A model generated the notes under the pieces. It saw nothing but the letters and a program-made list of their open reading frames with translations. It had not been told where the DNA came from and searched no databases. Both the position numbers and the translations under genes were made by a program. 64,000 nucleotides of DNA. Source: Thermosulfurimonas sp. F29. GTDB lineage: Bacteria > Desulfobacterota > Thermodesulfobacteria > Thermodesulfobacteriales > Thermodesulfobacteriaceae. Position 1 is the stretch's first letter; the number at the start of each line of letters is the position of its first letter. This document shows, piece after piece, positions 10,821 through 16,152 of this stretch. The stretch lies in contig NZ_JAIFYA010000001.1 of the NCBI RefSeq assembly GCF_019688735.1, positions 806,001-870,000 of the forward strand, written 5' to 3'.

Positions 10821-11120
10821 TCAAGAGAAACGATCCTCCCAGTAAAAGGGACGGCGATGGTGATGGGCAATAGCCAAAATCAGAATGACTTTTTCATCTT
10901 CAAGAACAGTATAAAAAATACTGTAAGGAAATGTATGAAGAATACATCGTCTAATGCTTTCACTCACTATCGGATACATATAGGGATTAAGGAAAATCCT
11001 CTGTAAAGCTCTCTTAACCTCTGTGTTAAACCTTAACCCCAATCCTTTTTGTTGGATTTCATAATATTCAATCGCTTCTTCAAATTCCTCCTTTGCTGCT
11101 TCTAAAAACTCGATCTTCAT
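10821..11120 (-). CDS. ParE/RelE-superfamily toxin
   Basis: A product of 99 residues beginning MKIEFLEAAKEEFEEAIEYYEIQQKGLGLRF and containing RRCILHTFPYSIFYTV and ILAIAHHHRRPFYW. This is the standard compact ParE/RelE fold, whose members inhibit gyrase or cleave mRNA. It is translated from an ATGA overlap with the upstream antitoxin gene. It is clearly richer in A+T than purL. It lies convergent to and directly against purL, within an insertion bracketed by duplicated purL sequence. Confidence 0.88.
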   Translation of the reverse strand: MKIEFLEAAKEEFEEAIEYYEIQQKGLGLRFNTEVKRALQRIFLNPYMYPIVSESIRRCILHTFPYSIFYTVLEDEKVILILAIAHHHRRPFYWEDRFS

Positions 11121-11587: not shown

Positions 11588-12643
11588 TTAACTCAGAAGC
11601 TGATCCAGTAGTTCTTTTCGAAGATAAGTCCTGCCCAATTCTCTAGCCCGCTGTACCTTCCGGGGGTGTCTTATCCTGGTTTGCAGGGGTAAATGTTCCA
11701 CTTTGCGGGCCACGGAATAGGTGTCCTCGGGAAGCACTAGCACCGGGATCCCTGCCTCCTCGGCCCGGGTTAAAATGATTTCGTTAGGATAGAGCCCTCC
11801 CGTGAGGATGAGACATATTGCTCCGGTTTCGATGGCTGCCAATTGAATATCGGAACGGTCTCCTCCTACAATAACTCCAAAGTTGGGGGTCTTGCGAAAA
11901 TATTGAATGGCTTTGTCTACCTGCATGCCCCCGATCAAAAAGTGCTCTACCAGTCGATCCTCCCCGGTGTTCCCCAGGAGTTTGGCTCCTAAATACTCTC
12001 TAAGTTCCCCTACAGAAACCGCAGCCAGGAGATCGTCATGAGGGAACTCTCCCAGAATCGAAATACCTCTTTTTTCAAGAAAAGGGCGAATTAGGTCATT
12101 ATAGTTGGGAAAGTCCGCCGGAGAGATATCATTAAAAATTACTCCCAGAAGAAGATCTTCCAGATCCTCTGCGGCTTTGAGAACATAATCCAGGACATCT
12201 TCCCCTTCATAGCGCACCACCAGAACCACACGGGCATGTAGAGATTTTGCCAGAGTTAGACCGGAGATTCCGAGGAATGTTCCGGAATAAAGACTTCCGT
12301 AGCCTCCCAGAAGTAAAAATTCATCCTTTTCTCCTGCCTGTTTGCAAAAGTCCAGTATCTGATGGAAAAACCCTCCGGTTTCCCCCCTCAGGGCCTTCAC
12401 CAGAACATCTTGAGTAAGTAGTACGGAGGAAAGCTCAGAGGGAGAGATGGTTAGATTCAGGGTGCGGGCTACAAATAAAGCGTCATCGTCCACCAGTGTT
12501 CCTTCTATCATGGTGGGGCGGTTTCCTACGGGTTTGCGGTAGGTGAAGGAGGTCCCCTTTTCTCTGAGGTAATCTCCCAACATCAGAGTGGTCAGGGTCT
12601 TTCCCGCAAAAGGTGTGGTTGAACATACATAGATGGTCTTCAT
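11588..12643 (-). CDS. P-loop/DRTGG-domain protein (phosphotransacetylase N-terminal-like)
   Basis: A product of 351 residues. The N-terminal half is a dethiobiotin-synthetase-like P-loop domain (YVCSTTPFAGKTLTTLMLGDYL). The C-terminal part holds a DRTGG domain (VIVGGDRSDIQLAAIETGAICLILTGG, then PVLVLPEDTYSVARKVEHLP). The same pair occurs at the N-terminus of long bacterial phosphotransacetylases, where it is thought to sense metabolites; no catalytic acetyltransferase domain is present here. ATG 12643 with GGAGGAG upstream is preferred over 12715. The gene follows the acyl-CoA synthetase gene, from which it is now separated by an IS110 element. A regulatory role in acetyl-CoA/acetate metabolism is inferred. 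Confidence 0.8.
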   Translation of the reverse strand: MKTIYVCSTTPFAGKTLTTLMLGDYLREKGTSFTYRKPVGNRPTMIEGTLVDDDALFVARTLNLTISPSELSSVLLTQDVLVKALRGETGGFFHQILDFCKQAGEKDEFLLLGGYGSLYSGTFLGISGLTLAKSLHARVVLVVRYEGEDVLDYVLKAAEDLEDLLLGVIFNDISPADFPNYNDLIRPFLEKRGISILGEFPHDDLLAAVSVGELREYLGAKLLGNTGEDRLVEHFLIGGMQVDKAIQYFRKTPNFGVIVGGDRSDIQLAAIETGAICLILTGGLYPNEIILTRAEEAGIPVLVLPEDTYSVARKVEHLPLQTRIRHPRKVQRARELGRTYLRKELLDQLLS

Positions 12644-12689
12644 TTTTCTCCTCCTGCAATGAATTATGTTATATCCATTCCCGAGATAA

Positions 12690-12830
12690 AGTTTATAGAG
12701 GGACAAGGACTCCATTTTTCGTAGGCTTGGAAGCCTCTATAGGAGTCTGTCCCTCTGTCCCTCAACTCCCAATTGGTTGGTTGGGCGCAAAAGCCCCTGC
12801 CAAACGGGAGGATGGAGCTGAGGGACATAT
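12690..12830 (+). ncRNA. Candidate IS110 bridge RNA
   Basis: Two successive stem-loops fill the left end of the element. Stem-loop 1: GAGGGACA (12698-12705) pairs with TGTCCCTC (12748-12755), and GACTCC (12708-12713) with GGAGTC (12742-12747); AGGCT/AGCCT forms an inner hairpin. Stem-loop 2: GTCCCTCA (12757-12764) pairs with TGAGGGAC (12819-12826), CTCCC (12766-12770) with GGGAG (12806-12810), and GGGC with GCCC around GCAAAA. Loop 1 contains CATTTTTC (12713-12720), identical to the left target flank 12641-12648, and AGGAG (12741-12745), complementary to CTCCT. Loop 2 contains stretches that could pair with the element's own joined ends. This matches the target-loop/donor-loop plan known for IS621. 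RNA ends are approximate. Confidence 0.6.
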
Positions 12831-12852
12831 ACCTTATCCCAGGAGGTAGCCT

Positions 12853-14037
12853 ATGTTCTACATAGGTATCGATGTCGCCAAAAATTCCTTCCAGTTCTGT
12901 ATCCTTCACCCACAAAAGGGAAAGCTCGTATCCAAAAACCTCCCCATGTCTTCCAAAGGCTTCGAAGACTTCCTCCAAACTCTCTCCGCCTATACCCCAA
13001 ACCATATCGTCCTTGAATCCTCCGGACGCTTCCACCTCCCTCTCCTCGCCTTCCTCCTGGACCAGGACTTCCGGGTATCCCTCCTCAACCCTAAAATGGT
13101 TCATCACTTCGTCCGGTTCGTCTCCGCTAACAACCCCTCTAAGTCCGATAAAAAAGACGCCTTCCTCCTGGCGCTCTTTGCCCTCTCCAATCCCCACCTC
13201 CTTAAACCAGCTACCCTCCCCTCCGAAACCAAACTCCTGGCCCGACAAATCCAAAAACTCAAACAGGAAATCGCCGAGGCCAAAACCCAAATCAAACACT
13301 CCCTCGCCGCCCTTTTCCCCGAAGCCGAAAAACACTTCAATGTCTTCTCTCGGGCCTTCCTTGAAATCCTCAGCCGCTACCCCTCCGCTAAAAGAATTGC
13401 CAAAGCCGGTTGGGGAAAAATAGACTATATCCTCTCCCGACTGCCGGGCCGTAAACCTTCCTTCTCCGCTCAAGACCTCGTGCAGGTGGCCCAAAACTCG
13501 GTGGGGATCTCTCATAAAGGCCTGGAAAAAATCCTCCAAATTTACATCCAAAAGATCTTCTTCCTCCAATCCATGATCGAAAAACTGGAAAAAGACCTCC
13601 AGACGGAGATCGAAACTACCATGAAAACTCAGCTGGAATGCCTCTCCTCCATAAAAGGCATCTCCCGCGACCTCGCCTCCAGGTTCCTGGCCGAAGTCGA
13701 AAACATAAAACGCTTCAGTAACGCCAAAAAACTGATCAAATATGCCGGAACAGATCCCGTGGTCAAACAATCCGGAAAATGGAAGGTCCGTATGAACATC
13801 TCCAAACAGGGAAATCCTTACCTTCGAAATATCCTCTTCCAGATGGCCGTAGGAACGGTCAAGTGGGAGAAAACTTTTCAGCATTACTTCCGAAGGAAAT
13901 ACACCCAGTTCAGAAGCTATAAAAAAGCCATGATAGCCGTAGTTAACAAACTGATCCGGGTAATCTATGCCCTCTCTACTCGTAATCAATTCTTCGATCC
14001 TTCTAAACTTGCTCCTGCGGGGGTGCCCCATGCCTAG
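12853..14037 (+). CDS. IS110-family transposase (DEDD recombinase)
   Basis: A product of 394 residues. The N-terminal RuvC-like domain shows the acidic set Asp7 (GIDVAK), Glu55 (LESSG), Asp99 and Asp102 (SDKKDAF). A coiled-coil middle and the C-terminal transposase_20 domain follow (LSSIKGISRDLASRFLAEV, KYAGTDPVVKQSGKWK, ISKQGNPYLRNILFQMA); the conserved serine is probably that of QSGK. Length and domains look intact. The ribosome site is AGGAGG, 6 bases before the ATG. Codon use (many A/T-ending AAA and CTC/TCC mixes) differs from neighbouring genes. Confidence 0.95.
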   Translation: MFYIGIDVAKNSFQFCILHPQKGKLVSKNLPMSSKGFEDFLQTLSAYTPNHIVLESSGRFHLPLLAFLLDQDFRVSLLNPKMVHHFVRFVSANNPSKSDKKDAFLLALFALSNPHLLKPATLPSETKLLARQIQKLKQEIAEAKTQIKHSLAALFPEAEKHFNVFSRAFLEILSRYPSAKRIAKAGWGKIDYILSRLPGRKPSFSAQDLVQVAQNSVGISHKGLEKILQIYIQKIFFLQSMIEKLEKDLQTEIETTMKTQLECLSSIKGISRDLASRFLAEVENIKRFSNAKKLIKYAGTDPVVKQSGKWKVRMNISKQGNPYLRNILFQMAVGTVKWEKTFQHYFRRKYTQFRSYKKAMIAVVNKLIRVIYALSTRNQFFDPSKLAPAGVPHA

Positions 14038-14064
14038 CTATCAATTCCTGATAGTTGACTCCTC

Positions 14065-16152
14065 TTAAACTCCCAAACTGAGGCGGGCGTCTACGGCCAC
14101 AACTCCTTGGCCTTTAGGGCAAACTATTAAAGGATTTATTTCTCCTTCGTTTAATTCCGGAAAATCGGTGGCCAGTTGGGCCAAATTTACGATGCTTTTT
14201 ACCAGAGCGGGGATATCGCTCTCGGGCTCTCCCCGTATTCCCTTAAGCAATGGATACGCCTTGATTTCACGCACCATCTCCAGCGCTTCCTCCGGAGACA
14301 GGGGGGCCAGCCGAAAGCTCACATCTTTCAAAATTTCCACATAGATACCCCCCAGGCCAAACATTACCAGAGGACCGAATTGAGAGTCGCGTGTGAATCC
14401 CACGATGGTTTCCTTTCCCCGGGAGACCATTTCCTGGACCAGAACTCCCAATACCGTAGCCCCCGGAACAGCCTGCCGGGCCCGCATAGTCATGGCTTGA
14501 AAAGCCTGGATCAATTCTTCGTCACTGCGAATATTGATCTTGACTCCCCCGACATCGCTTTTGTGGATTATCTGAGGGGAAACGATCTTCAGGACTACCG
14601 GATAGCCGATGGCTCGAGCAGCGATTACGGCCTCGTCGGTGGTACGGGCTATAAGAGACTTGGGAAAGCGAAAACCGTAAGCCTGAAGTATTTCCTTGAC
14701 TTCGTAATCAAATAGCTGGGAGCGATCCTCGGCACGCACTTGCTGGAGTATGGAAGCAGCTCGCTTAAAATCTACCGATGGCCGATGACGGGAAGCCGAA
14801 GGTTTACTACATCGGTATTGATAGAGCCATACTTTCTCAAGAGAGGTTATCGCTTCTTCAGGATAGGTAAAATGGGGAATTCTGTGTTTCAGGAGTTTTC
14901 GTCGGGCCTTCTTAATGCTTTCATGGCCTAAAAAACAGGCAACTATGGGTTTTGGACTCTTTCTTTTTCCCAGGTGTTCAGCAACCTCCTCGGGATCAAC
15001 GGTGGCGGTGCGGGAGAGGATTACGAGGAGGCTATCCAGGCGTTCGTCCTCAATGAGAATTTCCAGGGCTCCGGCATACCGCTGAGCATCGGCGTCACCG
15101 GTAATATCCACAGGATTAAAAAAAGCGGCATAGGGCGGGAGGATCTTCCGTAGTTTTTCCACCGTATCCGTGGAAAGAGTGGGTAATTCCAGAGTCGAGT
15201 GTTCGCAGGCATCTGCCGCCACGATACCCGGTCCTCCCGAATTGGTTAGAATGCCCAGATTGGGTCCCCGGGGCAGAGGCTGAAAAGCGAGGAGGAGAGC
15301 CAGATTGAAGAATTCACGGAGGGTATGGGCCCGAATGATTCCCGCCCTTCGCACCGCCGCCTCGAAGGCCACCTCCGAGCCGGCGAGAGACCCGGTATGT
15401 GAAGAAGCCGCCCGCGCTCCGGCAGCGGTCACCCCGCTCTTGAAGATGATTATAGGTTTTTTGCGGGCTATCCTCCTGGCTACTTCGGTAAAAGTGCGCC
15501 CGTCCTCGACGCCCTCCAGATATCCCATTATTACTCTGGTGTGGGGATCATCTCCCAAAAGACGCAAACATTCCAGCTCCGAAACATCACACTTGTTTCC
15601 CAAACTGATGAATCTTGAAAGTCCCACTTTTTCCGCTTTTGACCATTCCAGAAGGGCCAGGCACAGGGCTCCGGATTGTGAAAAGAAACCTATGTGCCCC
15701 CTGAGGGGTTTCAGGGCGGCAAAAGTGGCATTAACCCGATGATAGGTGTCCAGAATCCCTAAACAGTTGGGACCTATGACCCTGATACCGAACCTTTTAG
15801 CAACTTCACCAAGCTCCTGTTCCAGTCTGGCTCCCTCCCGTCCGGATTCCTTAAAGCCCGCCGAAAGAACTACCGCCGCCCCGATACCTTTATGGCCACA
15901 CTCTTCTAGAATCCTGGGTACGAGAGGAGCCCTTACCGCTACTACAGCCAGATCAATCTTATCCGGTACCGCTGTGACTGAGGGATAAGCTCTGAGCCCC
16001 GCGATTTCTGAGGCCTTGGGATTTATGGGATATATCCTTCCCGAAAACCCACTCTCAAGAAGATTGCGAACCACATCGTGCCCTACCTTGCCGGGCTCAC
16101 GCGCTGCTCCGATAACAGCAATGGATTCGGGATTAAAAAATTTTTCCATCAT
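14065..16152 (-). CDS. Acyl-CoA synthetase (ADP-forming), fused alpha-beta type
   Basis: A product of 695 residues. The CoA-binding Rossmann domain begins FFNPESIAVIGAAREPGKVGH. The succinyl-CoA-ligase-like domains carry IGPNCLGI and the SHTGSLAG active-site histidine region. After a linker (about 440-480) an ATP-grasp domain follows (PVVLKIVSPQIIHKSDVGGV, then NEGEINPLIV). The enzyme class interconverts acyl-CoA, ADP and Pi with acid, CoA and ATP, typically acetate in anaerobes. All domains are present, so it is probably active. It precedes the DRTGG gene in the same direction; the IS110 insertion begins four bases after its stop codon. Confidence 0.9.
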   Translation of the reverse strand: MMEKFFNPESIAVIGAAREPGKVGHDVVRNLLESGFSGRIYPINPKASEIAGLRAYPSVTAVPDKIDLAVVAVRAPLVPRILEECGHKGIGAAVVLSAGFKESGREGARLEQELGEVAKRFGIRVIGPNCLGILDTYHRVNATFAALKPLRGHIGFFSQSGALCLALLEWSKAEKVGLSRFISLGNKCDVSELECLRLLGDDPHTRVIMGYLEGVEDGRTFTEVARRIARKKPIIIFKSGVTAAGARAASSHTGSLAGSEVAFEAAVRRAGIIRAHTLREFFNLALLLAFQPLPRGPNLGILTNSGGPGIVAADACEHSTLELPTLSTDTVEKLRKILPPYAAFFNPVDITGDADAQRYAGALEILIEDERLDSLLVILSRTATVDPEEVAEHLGKRKSPKPIVACFLGHESIKKARRKLLKHRIPHFTYPEEAITSLEKVWLYQYRCSKPSASRHRPSVDFKRAASILQQVRAEDRSQLFDYEVKEILQAYGFRFPKSLIARTTDEAVIAARAIGYPVVLKIVSPQIIHKSDVGGVKINIRSDEELIQAFQAMTMRARQAVPGATVLGVLVQEMVSRGKETIVGFTRDSQFGPLVMFGLGGIYVEILKDVSFRLAPLSPEEALEMVREIKAYPLLKGIRGEPESDIPALVKSIVNLAQLATDFPELNEGEINPLIVCPKGQGVVAVDARLSLGV

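Follow-up and report, generated by a model that had tools for sequence, protein, structure and literature searches.

We analysed 64,000 nucleotides (nt) of the Thermosulfurimonas sp. F29 genome (contig NZ_JAIFYA010000001.1, positions 806,001 to 870,000, forward strand; hereafter the window), in which an IS110 element lies in the ribosome-binding site of a host gene, its left end encoding a predicted bridge RNA, an expected member of the IS110 group. The recombinase matched both Pfam DEDD_Tnp_IS110 in its N-terminal part and Transposase_20, the serine domain, in its C-terminal part, and a profile of five recombinase homologues matched the ISCro4 and IS621 structures with E about 1e-31. The genome (2.35 Mb, 9 contigs) carries six essentially identical full-length copies of the element, which have only CCTCCTGC... 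in common at their left junctions and only ...ATAGTTGACTCCT at their right junctions. The window copy, its ends and its target are laid out as follows (ORF, open reading frame).

12651 to 14060, + strand: IS110 element, 1410 bp, one CT core counted per end and the target outside, from the junctions common to the six copies
12853 to 14037, + strand: IS110 recombinase, 394 aa, with DEDD residues D7, E55, D99 and D102 and the catalytic-serine candidate S307, invariant in the set compared (A1)
12641 to 12650, + strand: left half of the target, CATTTTTCTC, from comparing flanks and checking ORFs; read in reverse complement, 12641-12643 is the host-gene ATG
14061 to 14066, + strand: right half of the target, CCTCTT, predicted to pair with the right target guide over CT-CCT
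12651 to 12656, + strand: core CT and right donor CCTG; the minus strand gives a (GC)AGGAGG Shine-Dalgarno sequence before the host ATG
14051 to 14060, + strand: left donor ATAGTTGA and core CT, predicted to pair with the left donor guide at 12775-12782; TTGACT is also the -35-like half of a candidate circle-junction promoter
12653 to 12675, + strand: 17-nt spacer and -10-like TATATC (12670-12675), which would complete TTGACT...TATATC in the circular form
Element donor sequence: GTTGACTCCTGC

A CT core stands at both junctions, and beyond it there is no target duplication. For the core dinucleotide, the best positions are the CT in CTCCTGC (12651-12652) and that in GTTGACT (14059-14060): every junction has these CTs, whereas the two bases preceding CCTCC differ among the six copies (CT, CT, TT, TC, CA and TC). 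A preliminary description of the window had placed CTCCT at the core, complementary to AGGAG in the RNA; the complementarity stood, and the core is refined here to CT. Ends at CCTCC with the core before it were also considered and dropped, as junctions L039 and L053 and the two variable bases show only CTCC to be common. Counting the CT core present at both junctions, the window copy targets CATTTTTCTC-CT-CCTCTTAA, and the other five copies target CATTTTTTCTC-CT-CCTGTATT, CATTTATTTC-CT-CCTGTTTA, CATAATTTTCC-CT-CCTTATGA, CATGATTCCAC-CT-CCTTATAA and CATCTTACCTCC-CT-CCTTAAAT. The candidate sigma70 promoter at the circle junction, TTGACT-N17-TATATC, scores 4/6 here, 5/6 in four relatives and 3/6 in several others, an average only slightly above background.

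A predicted bridge RNA and its guides

The 133-nt stretch at 12696-12828 has a predicted fold of -65.5 kcal/mol (z = -5.5), with 0 of 200 shuffles as stable, and its two-loop fold is common to 14 aligned homologues from across the phylum, with compensatory change in 14 of the 20 predicted pairs. Of the alignment cells, 98.9% are paired, against 84.2% when shuffled and at most 49.5% when partners are slid. The preliminary description had seen two consecutive stem-loops in the left end and proposed a covariation check of such ends, and both stability and covariation bear the fold out. The variable parts of the RNA are the loop arms expected as target guides, and the donor guides (GTTGGTT or GTTGATT, and GGAGGAT) are nearly fixed among the homologues, as are the element ends expected to pair with them. 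Rfam has no matching family for the region. A protein scan of genome contigs yielded only three relatives. The RNA and its putative guides are:

12696 to 12828, + strand: bridge RNA with two stem-loops (12698-12755 and 12757-12826), from fold and covariation
12712 to 12720, + strand: left target guide CCATTTTTC, a hypervariable loop arm in A2
12738 to 12745, + strand: right target guide TATAGGAG, in which AG would pair with the core CT and AGG with CCT
12775 to 12782, + strand: left donor guide GGTTGGTT, predicted to pair with the bottom strand of AGTTGACT (14053-14060) with three wobbles; nearly fixed in all 14 homologues
12805 to 12810, + strand: right donor guide CGGGAG, predicted to pair with CTCCTG (12651-12656) with one wobble; GGAG conserved in 14/14 homologues

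The strings named in the preliminary description are all in place (CATTTTTC at 12713-12720 and again at 12641-12648, AGGAG at 12741-12745, GGTTGGT at 12775-12781 and CGGGAGGA at 12805-12812). Its proposed donor pairings for loop 2 hold as well, with 8/8 positions on the left, wobbles included, and 6/6 on the right; the relatives are consistent with them and too conserved for a strong test.

The target guides covary with the flanks of their own elements. Across 11 element types and six positions, the right guide forms 4.50 pairs with its own right flank versus 2.74 under permutation (p<1e-5), and across 13 types the left guide, in the register ending beside the core, forms 5.72 of 9 pairs versus 4.64 (p=2.4e-4); in the same family permutation test of 13 types, left-guide registers 1-3 nt away from the core gave nothing significant. 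At the level of single nucleotides, the guide AAGGAG of relative G010 meets the flank CTCCTT in 11 of 13 copies and the other two through a G-T wobble, while in F29, where the right guide is TAGGAG, T stands there in only 3/6 copies. Further pairs of guide and flank include GTGGAG/CTCCAC in G009, GACTACAG/CTGTAGTC in L069 and a 9/9 match, CTCCTCTCG, in L119. Two elements recruited by the RNA model alone also match: L145 over 9/9 consecutive positions of its right flank, CTGTAGTCA, and 8/9 of its left, and L137 over 7/7 consecutive positions of CTACAAA on the right. The identity of a bridge-RNA-guided recombinase, as first proposed from the window, is thus supported by homology to IS621/ISCro4, the covarying two-loop structure, guide-target covariation in 11-13 element types and these held-out matches.

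The left guide of the window's clade, CCATTTTT plus one base, may be read as a CAT anchor and a U tract able to pair with A or G. By copy, its best fit lies 2 nt from the core in L001-L003 and at 3 nt or 0 in L004-L006. The register at 2 nt, implied by the earlier match of loop 1 to the left flank, is best for L001-L003; it was set aside for lack of family-wide support, the family register lying 2-3 bases closer to the core. Elsewhere, the bridge-RNA model matches weakly (E 4.5e-5) at G000:C4:44752-44886, with no recognisable recombinase nearby.

Insertion sites at ribosome-binding sites and start codons

The identity of loop 1 to the left flank holds for the window copy; the five other identical copies sit at different flanks and lack the exact target CATTTTTCTCCT, which contradicts that claim in its strictest wording, so that a strict target CATTTTTCTCCT is not required. 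What the six copies do share is CAT-N7-9-CTCC, the reverse complement of a Shine-Dalgarno sequence and an ATG, the constant features being the CAT, a pyrimidine tract and the right-flank CTCCT. In 6/6 F29 copies the frame beginning at this ATG runs for 71 to more than 497 codons; in G010 the ATG is present in 12/13 copies, with an ORF of at least 60 codons in 11/13. An ATG with such an ORF lies at +6 to +12 of the core in 6/6 F29 and 11/13 G010 copies, against a background of 3.1% of the AGGAG strings in the window that precede such an ORF at that spacing (p about 1e-9 for F29 and 1e-15 for G010). Likewise, a CAT stands 6-11 nt upstream of the core at 22/23 sites versus 6-12% of CTCC sites. 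The preliminary interpretation was supported as far as it went, but missed both this target and the antisense frame described below.

The target genes include PurE-like, TusA-like and response-regulator-like genes and, in G012, a MetK-like gene, all named by N-terminal residues alone, and the element always points away from the target gene. Its left end supplies GCAGGAGG, by which GGAGG is regained 5-10 nt, mostly 6-8, before the host ATG, which therefore keeps an upstream Shine-Dalgarno sequence. A co-directional upstream gene ends at most 40 nt away in 14 of 23 insertions (F29, G010 and G012), where polarity would matter. The window copy itself splits an operon of two genes:

11588 to 12643, - strand: target gene, AAA_26 and DRTGG protein, 351 aa, with the insertion in its ribosome-binding site
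14065 to 16152, - strand: upstream neighbour of the target gene within the operon, CoA-ligase/ATP-grasp protein, with its stop codon about 7 bases from the junction

We found no exact empty site for the copies; in the genus-mate G004 the orthologous gene start is free of insertion and the same gene pair is joined by TTAGGAGGTCTATCATG. Two G010 copies are exceptions. L048 lies inside a spacer of a CRISPR (clustered regularly interspaced short palindromic repeats) array, and the spacer carries CCATTTTTTTATCTC-CT-CCTTTT, which argues that the sequence is recognised rather than a translated gene. L049 lies within a decayed transposase gene and has no CAT.

Some further sites were noted in passing. 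The array holding L048 (G010:C1:1640670-1643824) has at least 11 repeats (GTTGAAACCTGCCCTACTTAAAAAGGGATTGCGAC), and the spacer in question has a start-site-like sequence. A decayed solo left end, L130 (G000:C4:45800-45844), sits right at the start codon of a different gene (MNDKTGEP...); it looks like a relic that has come to act as the 5' leader. In G009, L013 and L055-L057 share left or right flanks in different combinations, together with a palindromic repeat, CACAGGCAAGATTGCCTGTG, at the right junction, which suggests recombination between copies.

The antisense frame and its readings

On the strand opposite the recombinase and bridge-RNA genes, the element is open almost from end to end:

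12664 to 14031, - strand: antisense ORF, 455 codons, hed-like, spanning the recombinase and bridge-RNA gene towards the host gene

This frame, codon on codon with the recombinase, is open over 455 codons in F29, 455 in L009 and 468 in the AT-rich G010. Eight start-targeting elements have 0, 0, 0, 2, 1, 3, 0 and 1 antisense stops, an avoidance with P of 5e-5 to 5e-13 against each gene's own use of A at third positions (A3) in other fourfold families, while 7-15 occur in those relatives with other targets in which most or all of the recombinase can be read. In the five elements where the frame is continuous, it opens 15-29 nt in from the right end and closes 6-45 nt short of the left junction; in L065 the antisense stop codon overlaps the rebuilt TAGGAGG. 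Fourfold sites of F29 and L009 are identical in 37%, as at random, and third positions are saturated; what is conserved is therefore openness, the lack of stops, and not an antisense protein sequence.

Two bounds apply to this comparison. L126/L090 was excluded from it: it has no antisense stop, but its right end is unseen and only 110 codons of its recombinase are readable. The G144 element (L084) was discarded as an exception to the rule, since a frameshift disrupts its recombinase from about codon 56 onwards and the part before it has no antisense stop. A shuffling of synonymous codons within genes leaves the codon counts, and with them the number of antisense stops in that frame, unchanged; it was uninformative about openness and was replaced by host codon usage and A3 use. 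At the right end of L055 (G009), TCAACTATG comes after a host Shine-Dalgarno sequence and begins a short leader frame, which overlaps the antisense ORF start.

Taken together, we read the locus as an IS110 element whose bridge RNA is aimed at translation starts, whose insertion appears to rebuild the site and whose antisense frame may serve as a corridor for ribosomes, a reading to which we give a probability of roughly 0.8. In the proposed mechanism, the bridge RNA would direct the recombinase to translation-start regions: AGGAG of the right target guide would pair with top-strand CT-CCT, the complement of a Shine-Dalgarno sequence, and the left guide CCAUUUUUC, in a pairing whose exact form we infer, would combine a start-codon complement with a U tract pairing A or G on the purine-rich gene strand, so that many gene starts would be tolerated. 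Recombination at the CT core would then place the element in the ribosome-binding site, pointing away from the gene, where the donor end CTCCTGC would restore GGAGG 6-8 bases before the host ATG. Apart from the exact left-guide pairing, these steps have the support of sequence, copies and covariation. The stop-free antisense frame might let ribosomes follow the host transcript through the 1.4-kb insert, protecting it from premature termination, halt beside the rebuilt ribosome-binding site and re-initiate there. With ribosomes following the transcript to that site, the insertion would be weakly polar or non-polar, an outcome we slightly favour.

Such a design would give a possible purpose to the puzzling whole-element antisense ORF, namely openness of frame without protein conservation, tied to the target type written in the guide. 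If true, this is a mobile element moulded so that ribosomes can translate across it, and the gene that it interrupts may remain expressed; the U tract pairing A and G would likewise be a natural degenerate RNA guidance that broadens the bridge-RNA target set. Somewhat better than an even guess, in our view, is the general form of this proposal: a class of RNA-guided transposons aimed at the Shine-Dalgarno/start-codon region, a sequence that most bacterial genes have in common, which rebuild the site from their own end and keep a stop-free corridor through the recombinase and guide-RNA genes, leaving operons unsilenced.

Several observations weigh against this reading. The antisense start is weak here, with no good Shine-Dalgarno sequence 5-10 nt before the ATG at 14031, and in 3/8 start-targeting elements 1-3 antisense stops break the frame. 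On the unrooted recombinase tree a single branch separates the two target classes, so the link between target type and open frame amounts to one evolutionary event within the family. Selection against intragenic insertions inflates the share of tolerated sites, the right-flank fit of L068 is no better than chance, and in this clade the T-rich left guide leaves its register ambiguous, the best fit being at 2-3 nt from the core here and at 0 for the family as a whole.

The open frame might instead be a functionless by-product of codon bias towards pyrimidine-ending Leu and Ser codons, which we consider unlikely. In AT-rich hosts these genes also make little use of TTG, CTG and AGY, and long antisense frames are common in GC-richer hosts. 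However, most of the genes use A-ending codons normally for Pro/Thr/Ala/Val, and in the hosts of these genes, which have 36-39% GC themselves, TTA/CTA make up 41-47% of Leu codons; the G010 recombinase uses TTA, CTA and TCA in 0 of about 80 Leu/Ser codons, and TTA/CTA in 0/40 Leu codons versus 47% of Leu in host genes. Codon bias would also have to account for a frame that stays open through the non-coding bridge-RNA region, over 61-83 codons, in 8/8 start-targeting elements, and for the relatives with other targets that lack an open frame.

Comparably improbable is a functional antisense protein, for whose sake the element would seek ribosome-binding sites so that the host translates this second gene. 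The frame that stays open across the element for about 455-471 codons in F29, L009, G010, L065 and L066 would fit it, as would the precedent of 'hed' in IS900 of Mycobacterium avium subsp. paratuberculosis (IS110 family), an ORF spanning that element on the opposite strand, described in PMC8141618 as a gene of unknown function and not as a corridor. Against it, fourfold sites are antisense first codon positions and their identity between F29 and L009 equals expectation (0.37 vs 0.37), and antisense identity is below sense identity in every pair. That the RNA does not choose targets, insertion being random or protein-directed with survival only in ribosome-binding sites, is very improbable, for although purging of intragenic insertions enriches intergenic sites and the window copy's left-guide match falls in low-complexity sequence, guide-flank covariation, the held-out matches, a copy at the same motif within a CRISPR spacer and the single-nucleotide agreement of the G010 right guide with its flanks, as set against F29, speak for guidance.

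Comparison with known elements

IS900 is said, in the title of a 1997 paper by Doran, to target translation initiation signals. Its target, CATGNNNNNNTCTCCTT, corresponds to CATGN6TCTCCTT (PMC8141618), so that IS900 and the element described here are alike, by description rather than by sequence, in a CAT/CTCC start-site target and a whole-element antisense ORF. They differ in the distant phylum of the host, and the passages of PMC8141618 consulted mention no bridge RNA or guide match. By this analogy, IS900 would be an independent second case of a start-site target with an antisense ORF; the same design appears here in a phylum distant from the IS900 host and suggests a guide-RNA explanation for the target preference described in 1997. 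On text search, neither Durrant 2024 (PMC11208160) nor the seekRNA paper (PMC11187229) mentions IS900, start-codon targeting or Shine-Dalgarno targeting. As far as our searches of open-licence papers reach, a start-site guide combined with an antisense corridor is undescribed outside IS900.

With IS621/ISCro4 (Durrant 2024, PMC11208160; Hiraizumi 2024, PMC11208158) the element shares a DEDD recombinase, a left-end bridge RNA with the target loop before the donor loop, and guides that pair with both strands and include the CT core; for their junction promoter it has a candidate with a near-background match. It differs in its target, the translation-start region in many genes, of which the left half varies, in a left guide that in this clade lacks CT at the core (GT/TT instead) and in its conserved antisense frame. 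ISEc21 and the IS1111-group seekRNA elements (Siddiquee 2024, PMC11187229) are also RNA-guided through short matches to both strands, and ISEc21 has a non-coding region upstream of tnp as this element does; in the IS1111 group, by contrast, the RNA lies downstream of the recombinase and the targets are repetitive extragenic palindromic (REP), attC or short linear sites. An order-level relative, G032 (L023, L033), has about 15 distant IS110/IS1111-type matches. Close to the insertion region, the window holds a ParE-type toxin gene (PF05016) at 10821-11120.
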